NCBI GenBank assembly: GCA_003599295.1
Contig: QZJK01000018.1
Span: 1 to 43,596 of the forward strand
Reading direction: 5' to 3'
DNA: 43,596 nucleotides
Origin: Candidatus Parcubacteria bacterium
GTDB taxonomy: Bacteria; Patescibacteriota; Minisyncoccia; Phycocordibacterales; UBA2100
The first letter of the stretch is position 1, and every line of letters begins with the position of its first letter. Shown here one piece after another: positions 1,597 to 5,783 of the stretch. The translations under genes and the position numbers were made by a program. The notes beneath the pieces were generated by a model. It saw only the letters and a list, made by a program, of their open reading frames with translations, was not told the DNA's origin and did not search any database.

Positions 1597-2376
1597 ATGC
1601 TTGCAGGAGCCGACTCCTTCATTAAAGAGATCACGCGAGAAGCCGGAGACGCAACGCTGAAACGGTTCGGAAAAGACGGAGTGCACTACACGAAGTCCGA
1701 ACGCATTTGGGACGTCGTCACCAAGGCAGACCTCCTATCGGAAAAAATCCTCGTCTCAAGGATAAAAAAACAGTATCCGCGCCACGGCATCATTTCCGAA
1801 GAAAGCGGTTCGCATAATCCGGGGGAAGAATACGTGTGGGTCATCGACCCCATCGACGGCACTTTGAATTTTGCTTCTGGCACGCCGCTCTATGGCGTGA
1901 TGGTGTGCCTTGTTCATGACAGCGAGGTCATGCTTTCTGCGATACACATTCCCGCGACCGGTGAATTCTTTTTCGCGAAAGCCGGGAAGGGTGCCTACTT
2001 GAACGGCAAGCGAATCTACTGTTCGTCCCGAAAAGATGTCGGGAAAACATTCGGTACGGGCTCGACAAGTTTCTCGCCGCGAAGCACCCACTTTTTCGGG
2101 AAACTTTTGAAGGCGGGAAAGGGGGATCAGATGATGTACGGCTCGTTCGGCTCGATGGCGAACAACGCGTGCTACACAGCCGCAGGCCGCAGAGACTGGA
2201 TGGTCGCTCTGAACGGCAGTATTTGGGATTTCGCACCCGTGTCGCTCATCCTGAAAGAGGCGGGTTGCAAGATAACGAACATGAAAGGAGAACCGTGGAA
2301 ATTCGGGATGCTCGAAATGGTCGCGGCGAACCCCGTTCTCCACCGGAAACTGCTCGTATTGACGAAGGATGTGTGA
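1597..2376 (+). CDS. inositol monophosphatase family protein
   Basis: Motifs VTKADLLSEK, EESG, WVIDPIDGTLNF and WDFAPVSLILKEAG typical of the IMPase/SuhB fold. Start placed at ATG 1597 inside the longer ORF, with a -10-like TAAGAT at 1586-1591. Confidence 0.85.
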   Translation: MLAGADSFIKEITREAGDATLKRFGKDGVHYTKSERIWDVVTKADLLSEKILVSRIKKQYPRHGIISEESGSHNPGEEYVWVIDPIDGTLNFASGTPLYGVMVCLVHDSEVMLSAIHIPATGEFFFAKAGKGAYLNGKRIYCSSRKDVGKTFGTGSTSFSPRSTHFFGKLLKAGKGDQMMYGSFGSMANNACYTAAGRRDWMVALNGSIWDFAPVSLILKEAGCKITNMKGEPWKFGMLEMVAANPVLHRKLLVLTKDV

Positions 2377-2393
2377 GGTGCTACTAAAGAGAT
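2359..2393 (+). promoter_or_regulatory. sigma70-like promoter for a leader micro-ORF
   Basis: TTGACG (2359-2364), 17-bp spacer, TACTAA (2382-2387), 6 nt before ATG 2394. Confidence 0.5.
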
Positions 2394-2447
2394 ATGAACG
2401 CAATGACACAGGTGCATCACGGCTCGATTCTCGCGCGAGGGGATTGA
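2394..2447 (+). CDS. putative leaderless leader peptide MNAMTQVHHGSILARGD
   Basis: 17-codon ORF with promoter ending 6 nt upstream; its 3' end (2430-2442) is complementary to the 5' half of the downstream terminator. Confidence 0.4.
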   Translation: MNAMTQVHHGSILARGD

Positions 2448-2472
2448 GTTGATTTCCATTTTCATCAAACCA

Positions 2473-2497
2473 GCCCCCTCTCGCGAGGGGGCTTTTC
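2473..2497 (+). terminator. Rho-independent terminator/attenuator
   Basis: Perfect 8-bp stem GCCCCCTC-TCGC-GAGGGGGC followed by TTTTCGTTT. Confidence 0.75.
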
Positions 2498-2547
2498 GTT
2501 TCTCGGCCCGTATATAGAGAAACTTGTTCTACAAGGAGGAAAAAAGA

Positions 2548-2772
2548 ATGTCAGATGGCGGCATCTTCACTGAACGTGTTGGAGGTGAACTCATTCGCTA
2601 CATGGGATCCGGGCTGGCGCACGACACCGGCCGCGAACCATCTCAAACAATCGGTTGGCGCGAGCGACCAGACGGAACGCGAGAAGAGGTCACGTTCTAC
2701 GACGGCTTCGGGTGGCTTTCGAAATCCGAACACTTCAAGCTTCTGCAAGAAGAACCGCGCTTAGCGCCGTAA
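2548..2772 (+). CDS. small SD-led protein with GWRERPDG motif, paralog of the next gene
   Basis: AAGGAGG SD at 2533-2539; protein MSDGGIFTERVGGEL...TIGWRERPDGTREEVTFYDGFGWLSK. Confidence 0.7.
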   Translation: MSDGGIFTERVGGELIRYMGSGLAHDTGREPSQTIGWRERPDGTREEVTFYDGFGWLSKSEHFKLLQEEPRLAP

Positions 2773-2803
2773 CGGTGCCGACGCGTGAGTTTAAGGAGCG
2801 GTC

Positions 2804-2998
2804 ATGGCTGCAGGAGAGGTGTTCACGACCCGCGAGGGCACAATGAAAGTCCCGTTCAGATGGAATGATGGACTTCATCGAGCCTTGGCGTATGAGCCTC
2901 TGCAGAACTACGGCTGGCGTGAGCGTCCCGATGGTTCTCGTGAGCCGGTCTCTTGGGAAGGTCACCAGTGGGAGTTCACGTGGCGACTGGATCTTTAA
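2804..2998 (+). CDS. small SD-led protein with GWRERPDG motif, paralog of the previous gene
   Basis: AAGGAG upstream of ATG; ...NYGWRERPDGSREPVSWEGHQWEFTWRLDL aligns with the neighbouring ORF. Confidence 0.7.
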   Translation: MAAGEVFTTREGTMKVPFRWNDGLHRALAYEPLQNYGWRERPDGSREPVSWEGHQWEFTWRLDL

Positions 2999-3003
2999 CA
3001 ATC

Positions 3004-3037
3004 GCGGGCGCGCCCATGGCGCGCCCGCAGTGTTTTT
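3004..3037 (+). terminator. Rho-independent terminator
   Basis: 11-bp perfect stem GCGGGCGCGCC-CAT-GGCGCGCCCGC followed by AGTGTTTTTG. Confidence 0.8.
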
Positions 3038-3075
3038 GCTTGCGCGATAAAACAGGGGATGTTATAAAAGCGGTG

Positions 3076-3135
3076 ATGCAACACGTATTGACAATCAAGC
3101 CTCGACGAGAAGCTTCATACTTTGAGGCCGTTTAG
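3076..3135 (+). CDS. putative leaderless leader peptide MQHVLTIKPRREASYFEAV
   Basis: TATAAA (3063-3068) 7 nt before ATG 3076; 19 codons plus TAG ending in the 5' arm of an alternative hairpin. Confidence 0.4.
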   Translation: MQHVLTIKPRREASYFEAV

Positions 3136-3214
3136 AGCGTTTCCCCAAAAACATTCCAAAGCGGCCTCAAGGGGCCGCTTTCGTCACATGCAAGAGCATG
3201 CGGCGCATGCTCTT
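3120..3214 (+). promoter_or_regulatory. candidate attenuator with mutually exclusive hairpins
   Basis: 3120-3133 pairs with 3159-3172 (14 bp, two G-U), competing with hairpin AAAGCGGCC (3158-3166)/GGCCGCTTT (3173-3181). A further perfect hairpin AAGAGCATGC-GGC-GCATGCTCTT lies at 3192-3214, before the SD. Confidence 0.5.
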
Positions 3215-3233
3215 TCACAGAGGAGGTAAGAAC

Positions 3234-3743
3234 GTGAATCCATGCTGGACTCGACTGGCCAATGAAATGGGGGCGACTGGGAGGTTCGACATGGAACGAC
3301 TCACGCCCAGATTTTTGGCCAAGACCTACCACGAGGGCGATGCCCTCGTACGCGGCGAAAATATGAACCGTCATGGCGTTCCTGCGGACCCCTACGCATA
3401 TCTTGCGTGCCTAAAGAGCAGGGACGCAGGCTGGTGCGAGATCGCCCTTGCATACGTCCGTGAGCAACGCCAGGGCAACGGTGTCGGCCGTCTTCTCATG
3501 GCCGAGCTACTCTCCCGGAAATCTGGAGTGCGGTACTTCACGATTTCTCAGGATCCGGCGTACCAGGAAATCGCGAGAAGGCACGGCTTTTGTCCGGTGA
3601 CCAGACTCGTGATGTCTAACGTTGAGGATTGGGCCGAGAGGGTCGGCCTGAATATCCCCAACGGTCGACAGCGTCTTCCTGAAACTGCTCTAAGGGACGG
3701 CTTGCCGCGTCTGAATGGCGGGCGATGGCTGTTCATTCGCTGA
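3234..3743 (+). CDS. GNAT family N-acetyltransferase
   Basis: AGGAGG SD at 3221-3226, GTG start; CEIALAYVREQRQGNGVGRLLMAELL and YQEIARRHGF match the GNAT acetyl-CoA binding region. Confidence 0.75.
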   Translation: MNPCWTRLANEMGATGRFDMERLTPRFLAKTYHEGDALVRGENMNRHGVPADPYAYLACLKSRDAGWCEIALAYVREQRQGNGVGRLLMAELLSRKSGVRYFTISQDPAYQEIARRHGFCPVTRLVMSNVEDWAERVGLNIPNGRQRLPETALRDGLPRLNGGRWLFIR

Positions 3744-3747
3744 ACAA

Positions 3748-3779
3748 AGGCGCACGCAGATATTATTCTGCGTGCGCCT
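3748..3779. terminator. bidirectional-type hairpin terminator
   Basis: 13-bp perfect stem AGGCGCACGCAGA-TATTAT-TCTGCGTGCGCCT after the GNAT gene. Confidence 0.65.
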
Positions 3780-3801
3780 AAAACCTTTATATACTGATGA
3801 C

Positions 3802-4116
3802 ATGTACAAAGTAGTCGTCTTCGTTCCGGTAGCGAACGCAGAATCTCTGCGACAGGCGATAGGAGATGCGGGTGGCGGAAAAATCGGGAACTACTCGCAC
3901 TGCAGTTTTTCATCGCACGGTACCGGACGATTCAAGCCGCTCGAAGGCGCACATCCGGCGATAGGGGAAATCGGCAAACTCGAAGAGGTGGAAGAAGAAC
4001 GCATTGAGTTTGTCTGCACAGAAAAGAAACTGCAGACGGTTCTCGCGGCTATCCGGAAGGCGCACCCGTACGAAGAACCCGCGATAGACGTCTGGAAATT
4101 GGTGGATAAGACTTAG
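3802..4116 (+). CDS. stand-alone NIF3/YqfO insert-domain-like (PII/CutA-like) protein
   Basis: MYKVVVFVPVANAESLRQAIGDAGGGKIGNYSHCSF...GRFKPLEGAHPAIGEIG...AIRKAHPYEEPAIDVWKL is the signature of this domain; TATACT 6 nt before ATG 3802. Confidence 0.75.
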   Translation: MYKVVVFVPVANAESLRQAIGDAGGGKIGNYSHCSFSSHGTGRFKPLEGAHPAIGEIGKLEEVEEERIEFVCTEKKLQTVLAAIRKAHPYEEPAIDVWKLVDKT

Positions 4117-4279
4117 AGCATGTTTGAAAACCTCTCCCTGTCTGCGATGCGTGTTTTTGGGCTTCGACGCGTCGTCTCGTCCTCAATGTATCTACGGATA
4201 CACCTCGGCCTCCGACTTGCGTCTCGCCTTCAAAAACGCGCATCTCGACTCGGGAACCCGGGTTTTCAAACATGCTCTA
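4114..4279. repeat. 166-bp long inverted-repeat element (MITE-like or structured RNA)
   Basis: Terminal arms TAGAGCATGTTTGAAAACC (4114-4132) and GGTTTTCAAACATGCTCTA (4261-4279) are perfectly complementary; interior arms partly complementary (GATGCGTGTTTTTG / CAAAAACGCGCATC); centre GTATC-TACG-GATAC at 4188-4201. Confidence 0.8.
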
Positions 4280-4316
4280 GCTATTTCGATTTTTCCTGCT
4301 AGAATGCGCTTTTCCC

Positions 4317-5783
4317 ATGCGCACCATCGGAGAAAAATGCGCAGTCTTTGGGGTCTACGGCAAAGGCCTCGATGTCGCCCGCATAACCTTCTTCGGGCTC
4401 TTCGCACTCCAGCACCGCGGCCAGGAAAGTTCCGGCATCGCAACAGCCGACGGCAAAACGATAACGCTCCACAAGGGAATGGGATTAGTCTCCCAAGTCT
4501 TCAACGACGAGCTCATAGGCGGTCTTAAGGGCCACATCGCCATCGGGCATAACCGCTACTCGACGACAGGCGGCTCAAAACTGAAACACTCTCAGCCGAT
4601 GCTGGGCGCTACCTTGGTGCACAAAGTCTCGTATGATGACCCGCGCCCAAGCCTCAACGATTCGGTCTCGCTCTCATCCGGACCAGACGACGGCGCGATT
4701 GCTCTCGCGCACAACGGGAACCTGCCGACAACACATGAGCTAGCGCAATTTTTGCGCTCTAAAGATATCGAACCGACGGAGTTCTCGGATTCTCGGATGA
4801 TGGTCGAGGCGATAGCCGCGCGCATGCGCGAGGGTATCGATCTCGCAGGAGCGATAAAAGATATGTACCCGCTTTTCACGGGCGCATTCTCGCTCGTCAT
4901 CATGTCGCAAGACAAGCTCATCGCCGTGCGCGACCACTGCGGCATTCGCCCCTTGGCGCTCGCGCGGCTGAACGGGGGATACGTCGTCGCATCGGAAACG
5001 TGCGCCTTCGCCCCCATTGGGGCGGAATTCGAGCGTGAGATACAGCCCGGCGAGTTAATAGTTATCGATGAGCAAGGCATAAGAAGCGAACAGATAGTAA
5101 AACCAGACCCGAAACTCGACATCTTCGAATTCGTGTACTTTGCGCGCCCCGATAGTGAGCTTCTTGGAAAATCGGTATATGAGGTGCGCCGCAATTTCGG
5201 CGTGGAACTCGCGAAAGAATATCCTCTCAAGGCCGATGTCGTCATTCCTGTGCCGGAGACGGCAGTCGCTTCGGCGATAGGGTATGCGCAGGCTTTAGGA
5301 ATCCCGTTCGAAATGGGACTCACGAAGAATCGCTACATCCACCGCACGTTCATTACACCGGAACAGCATGTGCGCGAGCAGGGAGTGCGCGCGAAATTAA
5401 GCGTTCTCCCGAGCGCCGTTCGCGGGAAGCGCGTCGTCGTTTTCGACGACTCCATCGTGCGCGGGACGACCTCGCGGCAGATAGTAAAAATGCTTTTCGA
5501 AGCAGGTGCCAAAGAAGTCCACTTTCTTGTCGCCTCGCCGCCGGTTAAATATCCGGATTTTTATGGCATCGATACGCCGAAACAAGAATCTCTTATCGGA
5601 GCGATGAAATCTGTCGAGGAAACACAGAAATATCTTGGCGCGACGTCGCTCCACTACCTTTCATACGAAGGCATGATACGCGCGACGGGCATTCCGGAAG
5701 ACCAATTCTGCACGTCGTGTTTTACCGGAATGTATCCGATAGACATCAAAGAACGCGCAAAAGAGATACAAATGGACGTGTAA
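4317..5783 (+). CDS. purF: amidophosphoribosyltransferase
   Basis: Class II Gln-amidotransferase start (MRTIGEKCAVFGVYG), ALQHRGQESSGIA, PRPP motif VVVFDDSIVRGTTS. Confidence 0.95.
   Translation: MRTIGEKCAVFGVYGKGLDVARITFFGLFALQHRGQESSGIATADGKTITLHKGMGLVSQVFNDELIGGLKGHIAIGHNRYSTTGGSKLKHSQPMLGATLVHKVSYDDPRPSLNDSVSLSSGPDDGAIALAHNGNLPTTHELAQFLRSKDIEPTEFSDSRMMVEAIAARMREGIDLAGAIKDMYPLFTGAFSLVIMSQDKLIAVRDHCGIRPLALARLNGGYVVASETCAFAPIGAEFEREIQPGELIVIDEQGIRSEQIVKPDPKLDIFEFVYFARPDSELLGKSVYEVRRNFGVELAKEYPLKADVVIPVPETAVASAIGYAQALGIPFEMGLTKNRYIHRTFITPEQHVREQGVRAKLSVLPSAVRGKRVVVFDDSIVRGTTSRQIVKMLFEAGAKEVHFLVASPPVKYPDFYGIDTPKQESLIGAMKSVEETQKYLGATSLHYLSYEGMIRATGIPEDQFCTSCFTGMYPIDIKERAKEIQMDV

Follow-up and report, generated by a model that had tools for sequence, protein, structure and literature searches.

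The window examined here, a contig of 43,596 nucleotides from the 716-kb genome of a Candidatus Parcubacteria bacterium, carries near its beginning a gene for a GNAT acetyltransferase that is preceded by a structured leader with a short upstream open reading frame (uORF). The parts of this leader, all on the forward strand, are as follows.

3040..3045, +: -35-like hexamer TTGCGC; relatives carry TTGCGC, TTGACA or TTGCAC at equal spacing
3063..3068, +: -10 hexamer TATAAA, 17 bp after the -35 and 7 nt before the uORF ATG
3076..3135, +: uORF of 19 codons, MQHVLTIKPRREASYFEAV, probably leaderless; frame kept in relatives
3103..3108, +: putative control codons CGA CGA (Arg-Arg); RR, RRR or RGR here in 28 of 28 leaders
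3107..3117, +: segment 1, partner of segment 2 (3123-3133), from the RNAalifold consensus and 1:2 energies
3120..3133, +: segment 2, partner of segment 1 or 3; 2:3 is stronger than with shuffled upstream sequence
3158..3172, +: segment 3, 5' arm and loop of the putative terminator and 3' arm of the antiterminator
3173..3187, +: segment 4 with the short U-tract CUUUCGUC, 3' side of the terminator-like hairpin
3192..3214, +: second hairpin, ending in CTCTTTC just before the Shine-Dalgarno sequence
3220..3226, +: Shine-Dalgarno sequence GAGGAGG of the GNAT gene
3234..3743, +: putative regulated gene, GNAT acetyltransferase of 169 aa, GTG start at 3234

The uORF runs from the ATG at 3076 to a TAG stop at 3133-3135, the terminator-like hairpin occupies 3158-3181, and the leader is separated from upstream sequence by another terminator-like hairpin followed by a T-run (3004-3028). 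Over its 191 nt the leader folds at z = -3.35. The preliminary description had already placed TATAAA (3063-3068) seven bases before the ATG, and had noted the 19-codon frame with its stop, a 14-bp complementarity between 3120-3133 and 3159-3172, both hairpins (3158-3181 and 3192-3214), the Shine-Dalgarno sequence and the GTG start; each was found again in the sequence as described. It had overlooked the -35-like TTGCGC, the tandem CGA CGA and the pairing of 3107-3117 with 3123-3133.

As a separate observation, hairpins whose 3' arm reads CTCTTTC or TTCTTTC directly before a Shine-Dalgarno sequence (window 3192-3216; 2700-2735 and 3247-3300 of locus L053) stand before several genes that lie behind attenuators or a T-box-like element, and a similar hairpin is present in the majority of relatives' Arg leaders of the GNAT or kinase type.

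Alternative pairings and the uORF start

Three mutually exclusive pairings can be drawn in the leader, namely 1:2, 2:3 (the antiterminator) and 3:4 (the terminator), with the uORF stop in or next to segment 2. The first of these emerged from an RNAalifold consensus of four leaders as an extra hairpin, in which the bases that directly follow CGA CGA pair with segment 2, and it completes the classical attenuator set. The 2:3 pairing of the window was equalled by just one of 200 shuffles, and the 2:3 helix outdoes shuffled upstream sequence in nearly every leader. MAFFT alignments gave weak covariation, since the core hardly varies and the subtypes are offset by one base; we therefore relied on shuffles and on a comparison of own with cross pairing, in which the own segments paired better in 23 of 27 leaders.

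The effect of a ribosome was modeled by masking its footprint during equilibrium folding, which ignores transcription kinetics. For the window, a footprint at the stop gave a terminator probability of 0.95, and one on either CGA gave 0.00; this supports the earlier suggestion that a ribosome at the uORF stop would free the downstream hairpin. Across 27 leaders a footprint at the stop gave a mean terminator probability of 0.93 and one on the Arg codons 0.22-0.26, with a difference above 0.5 in 19 of them; no switch was seen in L035, L100 and L107. With no ribosome present, equilibrium folding of the window leader favours the antiterminator, and that of several relatives favours the terminator. 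A T-rich tail follows the hairpin in most relatives; the U-tract of the window is short, and T-rich hairpin tails across its genome are generally short and mixed.

For 25 of the 28 leaders, the highest-scoring promoter within 60 nt stops 6-9 nt short of the uORF start, and a promoter score of at least 8 is reached by 61% of leaders versus 1.5% of other ATGs in the same loci, figures which are favoured by the partial use of promoter score in choosing the uORF start codons, although an unconstrained search agrees. This placement supports the proposal, made in the preliminary description, of a leaderless uORF: to judge from the sequence, the transcript probably starts at or adjoining the uORF start codon, and translation would begin from this 5'-terminal codon. 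The near-constant position of the promoter suggests that leaderless initiation belongs to the design. A strict promoter scan of 2300-4400 gave no match, and it missed the conserved promoter likewise. A perfect TTGACA within the uORF (3088-3093) was considered as an alternative -35 and set aside, as inspection by eye found no -10 at normal spacing.

Conservation, arginine codons and downstream genes

Six further genomes of the genus have relatives of the GNAT, at approximately 25-39% identity, and in three of these (L002, L004 and L006) the same leader lies directly 5' of the GNAT gene with a shared core, CGA CGA ... GAGGCYGYTTAGAG ... TTCCAAA(R)CGGCCTC. In L005, L003 (genome G018) and L007 (G011) the leader stands before the first gene of the operon and not directly before the GNAT gene. 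With a covariance model built from four leaders, 25 of the 53 genomes of the genus gave matches at E <= 0.1, those with the poorest scores being doubtful, and a second model found leaders in four other families of the order. The 28 leaders analysed come from Kaiserbacteria and these four other families. Public records carrying the leader motif are mostly Candidatus Kaiserbacteria, the rest being labelled Patescibacteria group bacterium or bacterium, and a class-level search with a further model (R3) gave, outside the order, only weak matches and no convincing tandem-Arg uORF. The preliminary description held that its proposal would fail if the uORF frame or the complementarity were not conserved; in relatives both are conserved, together with the Arg codons, the remaining pairings and the promoter spacing.

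The most constant element of the uORF is its arginine run. RR, RRR or RGR lies just before segment 1 in 28 of the 28 leaders analysed, a set found with covariance models seeded with CGACGA leaders, which leaders lacking Arg codons would escape; example peptides are MKKTLATYSRRAVSKIEAA, MQVKKTNTQNRRRTASHRLF, MESIKNIQNRRRAASS and MNMCAVLIQVRRRRHSV, among others. Doubled arginine is present in 27/28 leaders versus 38/195 promoter-linked short ORFs of similar length, a comparison in which the leaders are related to one another and do not count as independent events. CGA makes up 43 of 69 control codons versus 11.6% of the Arg codons in the window's genome. The C-terminus of the peptide differs between subtypes (EAV, EAA, SL, RLF, HSV, ECL), as does the position of the stop.

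The genes behind the leaders were never seen by the search model. Among the 28 leaders they comprise argG (9), argC (2), a gene of acetylglutamate kinase fold (5), argS (1), GNAT genes at or near the operon front (8) and others (3). The argG assignment is confirmed by TIGR00032, and argC, argF and argS were named by reading translations. At several of the five kinase-fold loci, GNAT and argF genes come after. In the reverse direction, the genus holds 15 argG genes, one of them at a contig end, and an RR or RRR leader lies upstream of 11 of the 14 that are testable (L026 and L013, both in the survey, included); of the remaining three, one is directly behind argF and two are without a leader. 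In relatives the leader thus precedes genes for the amino acid that its codons specify, by way of argG, argC, argS and the kinase-fold genes.

The structure model of the window GNAT (pLDDT 92.5) matches many GNATs, N-acetylglutamate synthases among them. Curated family models did not name the protein, and no ArgA match was found in NCBIfam; for the GNATs of L097 and L100, which stand behind Arg leaders in other families, the ArgA model is the best match, far below its cut-off. Our best guess is that the window GNAT is N-acetylglutamate-synthase-like. The kinase-like proteins are short (~160-185 aa; L014 1662-2138, L003 2003-2494 on the minus strand, L017, L021 and L033) and have no match in Pfam or NCBIfam, and the top matches of their structure model (pLDDT 84) are acetylglutamate kinase and the kinase domains of N-acetylglutamate synthase (NAGS). 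As a GNAT gene comes after the kinase-like gene in L014, L003 and L017, the two products may together form a split N-acetylglutamate synthase, on the evidence of these models.

For the window, its own genome speaks against this reading: argG was not found in it, and tblastn of all but ~3 kb of it found no argC, argJ or kinase-like gene. Its sole argF match is 26% identical and was read as aspartate carbamoyltransferase. With argG lacking and no argC, argJ or clear argF found, the arginine signal looks clear, but its benefit to this cell does not. The leader links uncharacterised genes, the GNAT and the short kinase-like protein, to arginine metabolism.

Mode of action

We consider it highly probable that the leader works as a trp/his-type attenuator, leaderless and ribosome-mediated, which monitors the charging of arginine tRNA and turns the gene on when this tRNA is uncharged. 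This reading is supported computationally by the conserved frame, Arg codons, pairings and promoter-AUG spacing, by the association with arginine genes and by the folding switch under masks; ribosome stalling on the Arg codons, termination in vivo, leaderless translation and the role of the GNAT are what we infer from these. Transcription would begin at the uORF AUG or beside it, and on this 5'-terminal AUG a ribosome would load. When Arg-tRNA is ample, the ribosome would pass CGA CGA to the stop and cover segment 2, allowing the 3:4 terminator to form and the gene to be off; when it is scarce, the ribosome would wait on CGA CGA and cover segment 1, such that 2:3 pairs, no terminator forms and the gene is on.

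The alternative that survives best, while still unlikely, is that the same Arg-sensing uORF acts post-transcriptionally, either on access to the GNAT Shine-Dalgarno sequence or on mRNA stability. The weak U-tract of the window and the second hairpin adjoining the Shine-Dalgarno sequence would suit such control, part of that sequence is able to pair with uORF bases in a long fold, and there is a precedent in Salmonella speF, where Arg codons control mRNA stability (PMC6386406). Against this, the same hairpin is followed by a T-rich tail in most relatives (T-rich hairpin tails being generally short and mixed in this genome), the first hairpin lies ~40 nt upstream of the Shine-Dalgarno sequence, and genes behind argG-type leaders begin a further 100-500 nt away. 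The preliminary description leaned to translational control; from the terminator-like look of the hairpin in most relatives, transcriptional control appears the more likely; in the window itself, with its short tail, either mode may apply.

It had also compared the leader with those of bmrCD and ermC and proposed a drug or general translation-stress signal, for which no support emerged. Stalling within the uORF by a nascent peptide or a drug, as happens in these and other arrest-peptide leaders, would produce an identical layout of uORF and hairpins, yet beyond its Arg run the peptide shows no conservation between subtypes and the stop position varies, and what is conserved is the Arg codons, before arginine genes. 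No conserved peptide is found at the presumed stall site beyond the Arg run. A conserved run with a varied C-terminus fits starvation sensing over nascent-chain arrest, and on these grounds we discard drug arrest and judge arrest in general to be very improbable. Finally, uORFs and hairpins are common, and RR occurs in 38/195 promoter-linked short ORFs (above), but a chance hairpin with a fortuitous ORF is scarcely credible given a frame, codons, pairings and spacing conserved across families before functionally linked genes.

The mechanism type is already known, and what would set this form of it apart is its arginine specificity, the probably leaderless uORF and the Patescibacterial host. 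With trp/his-type attenuators the leader shares a peptide with tandem control codons, the 1:2, 2:3 and 3:4 pairings and a stop in or next to segment 2; unlike them, it would sense arginine from a probably leaderless uORF in a Patescibacterial host, and it has no entry in Rfam, no family of which matches it. The T-box model of Rfam likewise gave no match at E <= 1 in 2990-3300. T-boxes bind tRNA directly, whereas the sensor here would be a translated uORF. Arginine T-boxes are similar in that they regulate arginine genes at the RNA level; a survey of Actinobacteria, which detected no RNA structure conserved ahead of arginine operons, mentions them as occurring elsewhere (PMC1262725). In the Salmonella speF leader, two consecutive Arg codons of orf34 likewise act as an arginine sensor, by way of a pausing ribosome and a refolding RNA (PMC6386406); that system works through Rho, ribosome-binding-site access and RNase G, has a peptide with a conserved core (DUF2618), controls ornithine decarboxylase, and lacks the intrinsic terminator switch proposed here. 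Leaderless leader peptides are known from trpL of S. meliloti (PMC7298713) and from the poly-Cys uORFs of mycobacteria, described as acting on translation (Canestrari 2020, cited in PMC13236596); these also place amino-acid control codons in a uORF at the transcript 5' end, and differ in sensing Trp or Cys and in belonging to other phyla. Our search of the open-access literature found no amino-acid attenuator described in Patescibacteria, which is weak evidence of absence, nor any attenuator of the classical kind that uses arginine codons to control arginine biosynthesis genes.

Other leaders and amino-acid starvation

Most of the window's genome and most of genome G028 were scanned for promoter-linked uORFs with alternative hairpins, which yielded, in addition to the Arg leaders, the His, Met, Ile and Phe candidates given here. 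A reversed-genome control reached scores of up to 44.5 at loose settings, and lone matches without cognate codons or conservation are therefore not trusted. The His, Met, Ile, Phe and T-box-like elements described below stand outside the Arg set and are leads, not results.

A second attenuator-like leader lies in the window at 2359-2493 (TTGACG-17-TACTAA, with an ATG six bases on). Its uORF, MNAMTQVHHGSILARGD (2394-2447), contains two His codons and precedes a small uncharacterised gene, and an alternative pairing competes with a terminator-like hairpin (2472-2493), whose probability in the mask test was 0.00 for a ribosome on the His codons and 0.98 for one at the stop. Adjacent to each other at 2548-2772 and 2804-2998 are two small paralogous genes, ~42% identical over 52 aa and without a Pfam match; within the genus a single further homologue was found (G063 C25), and it immediately precedes an Arg leader and argG.

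Matching leaderless leaders with Met runs occur at L044 14552 (G000 C7) and L178 (G028 C1:683506, minus strand), their peptides in the window's genome and G028 being MHRHFQRMMLTLMILPRGGVLPA and MYSKAMMMAMMSSRAEVFCLTA; they lie upstream of small genes and pyrF-pyrE, and both switch in the mask test. At L053 1734-3190 (G000 C17), three candidate amino-acid sensors follow one another, each preceding a small uncharacterised gene: a uORF leader rich in Ile, a T-box-like element (E = 1.2e-11 with the Rfam T-box model, under its gathering score) and a uORF containing five Phe codons. The Ile and Phe candidates showed no switch in the mask test. In L101 (G292, ~1460-1590) a candidate with two Pro codons (MNVVPPATAL) precedes, by ~900 nt, what looks like a glutamate 5-kinase gene (proB).

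It is quite possible, and we put it forward tentatively, that Kaiserbacteria and related Patescibacteria sense amino-acid starvation broadly through leaderless attenuators for Arg, His (window 2394-2493) and Met, and possibly through the Ile, Phe and Pro leaders and the T-box-like element, several of which stand before small uncharacterised genes. The Arg leader provides a means, open to testing, of reading out amino-acid starvation in bacteria for which culture is barely feasible. Patescibacteria such as these are thought to live off neighbours, and broad sensing, if true, would amount to an unrecognised starvation regulon in bacteria believed to depend on them.
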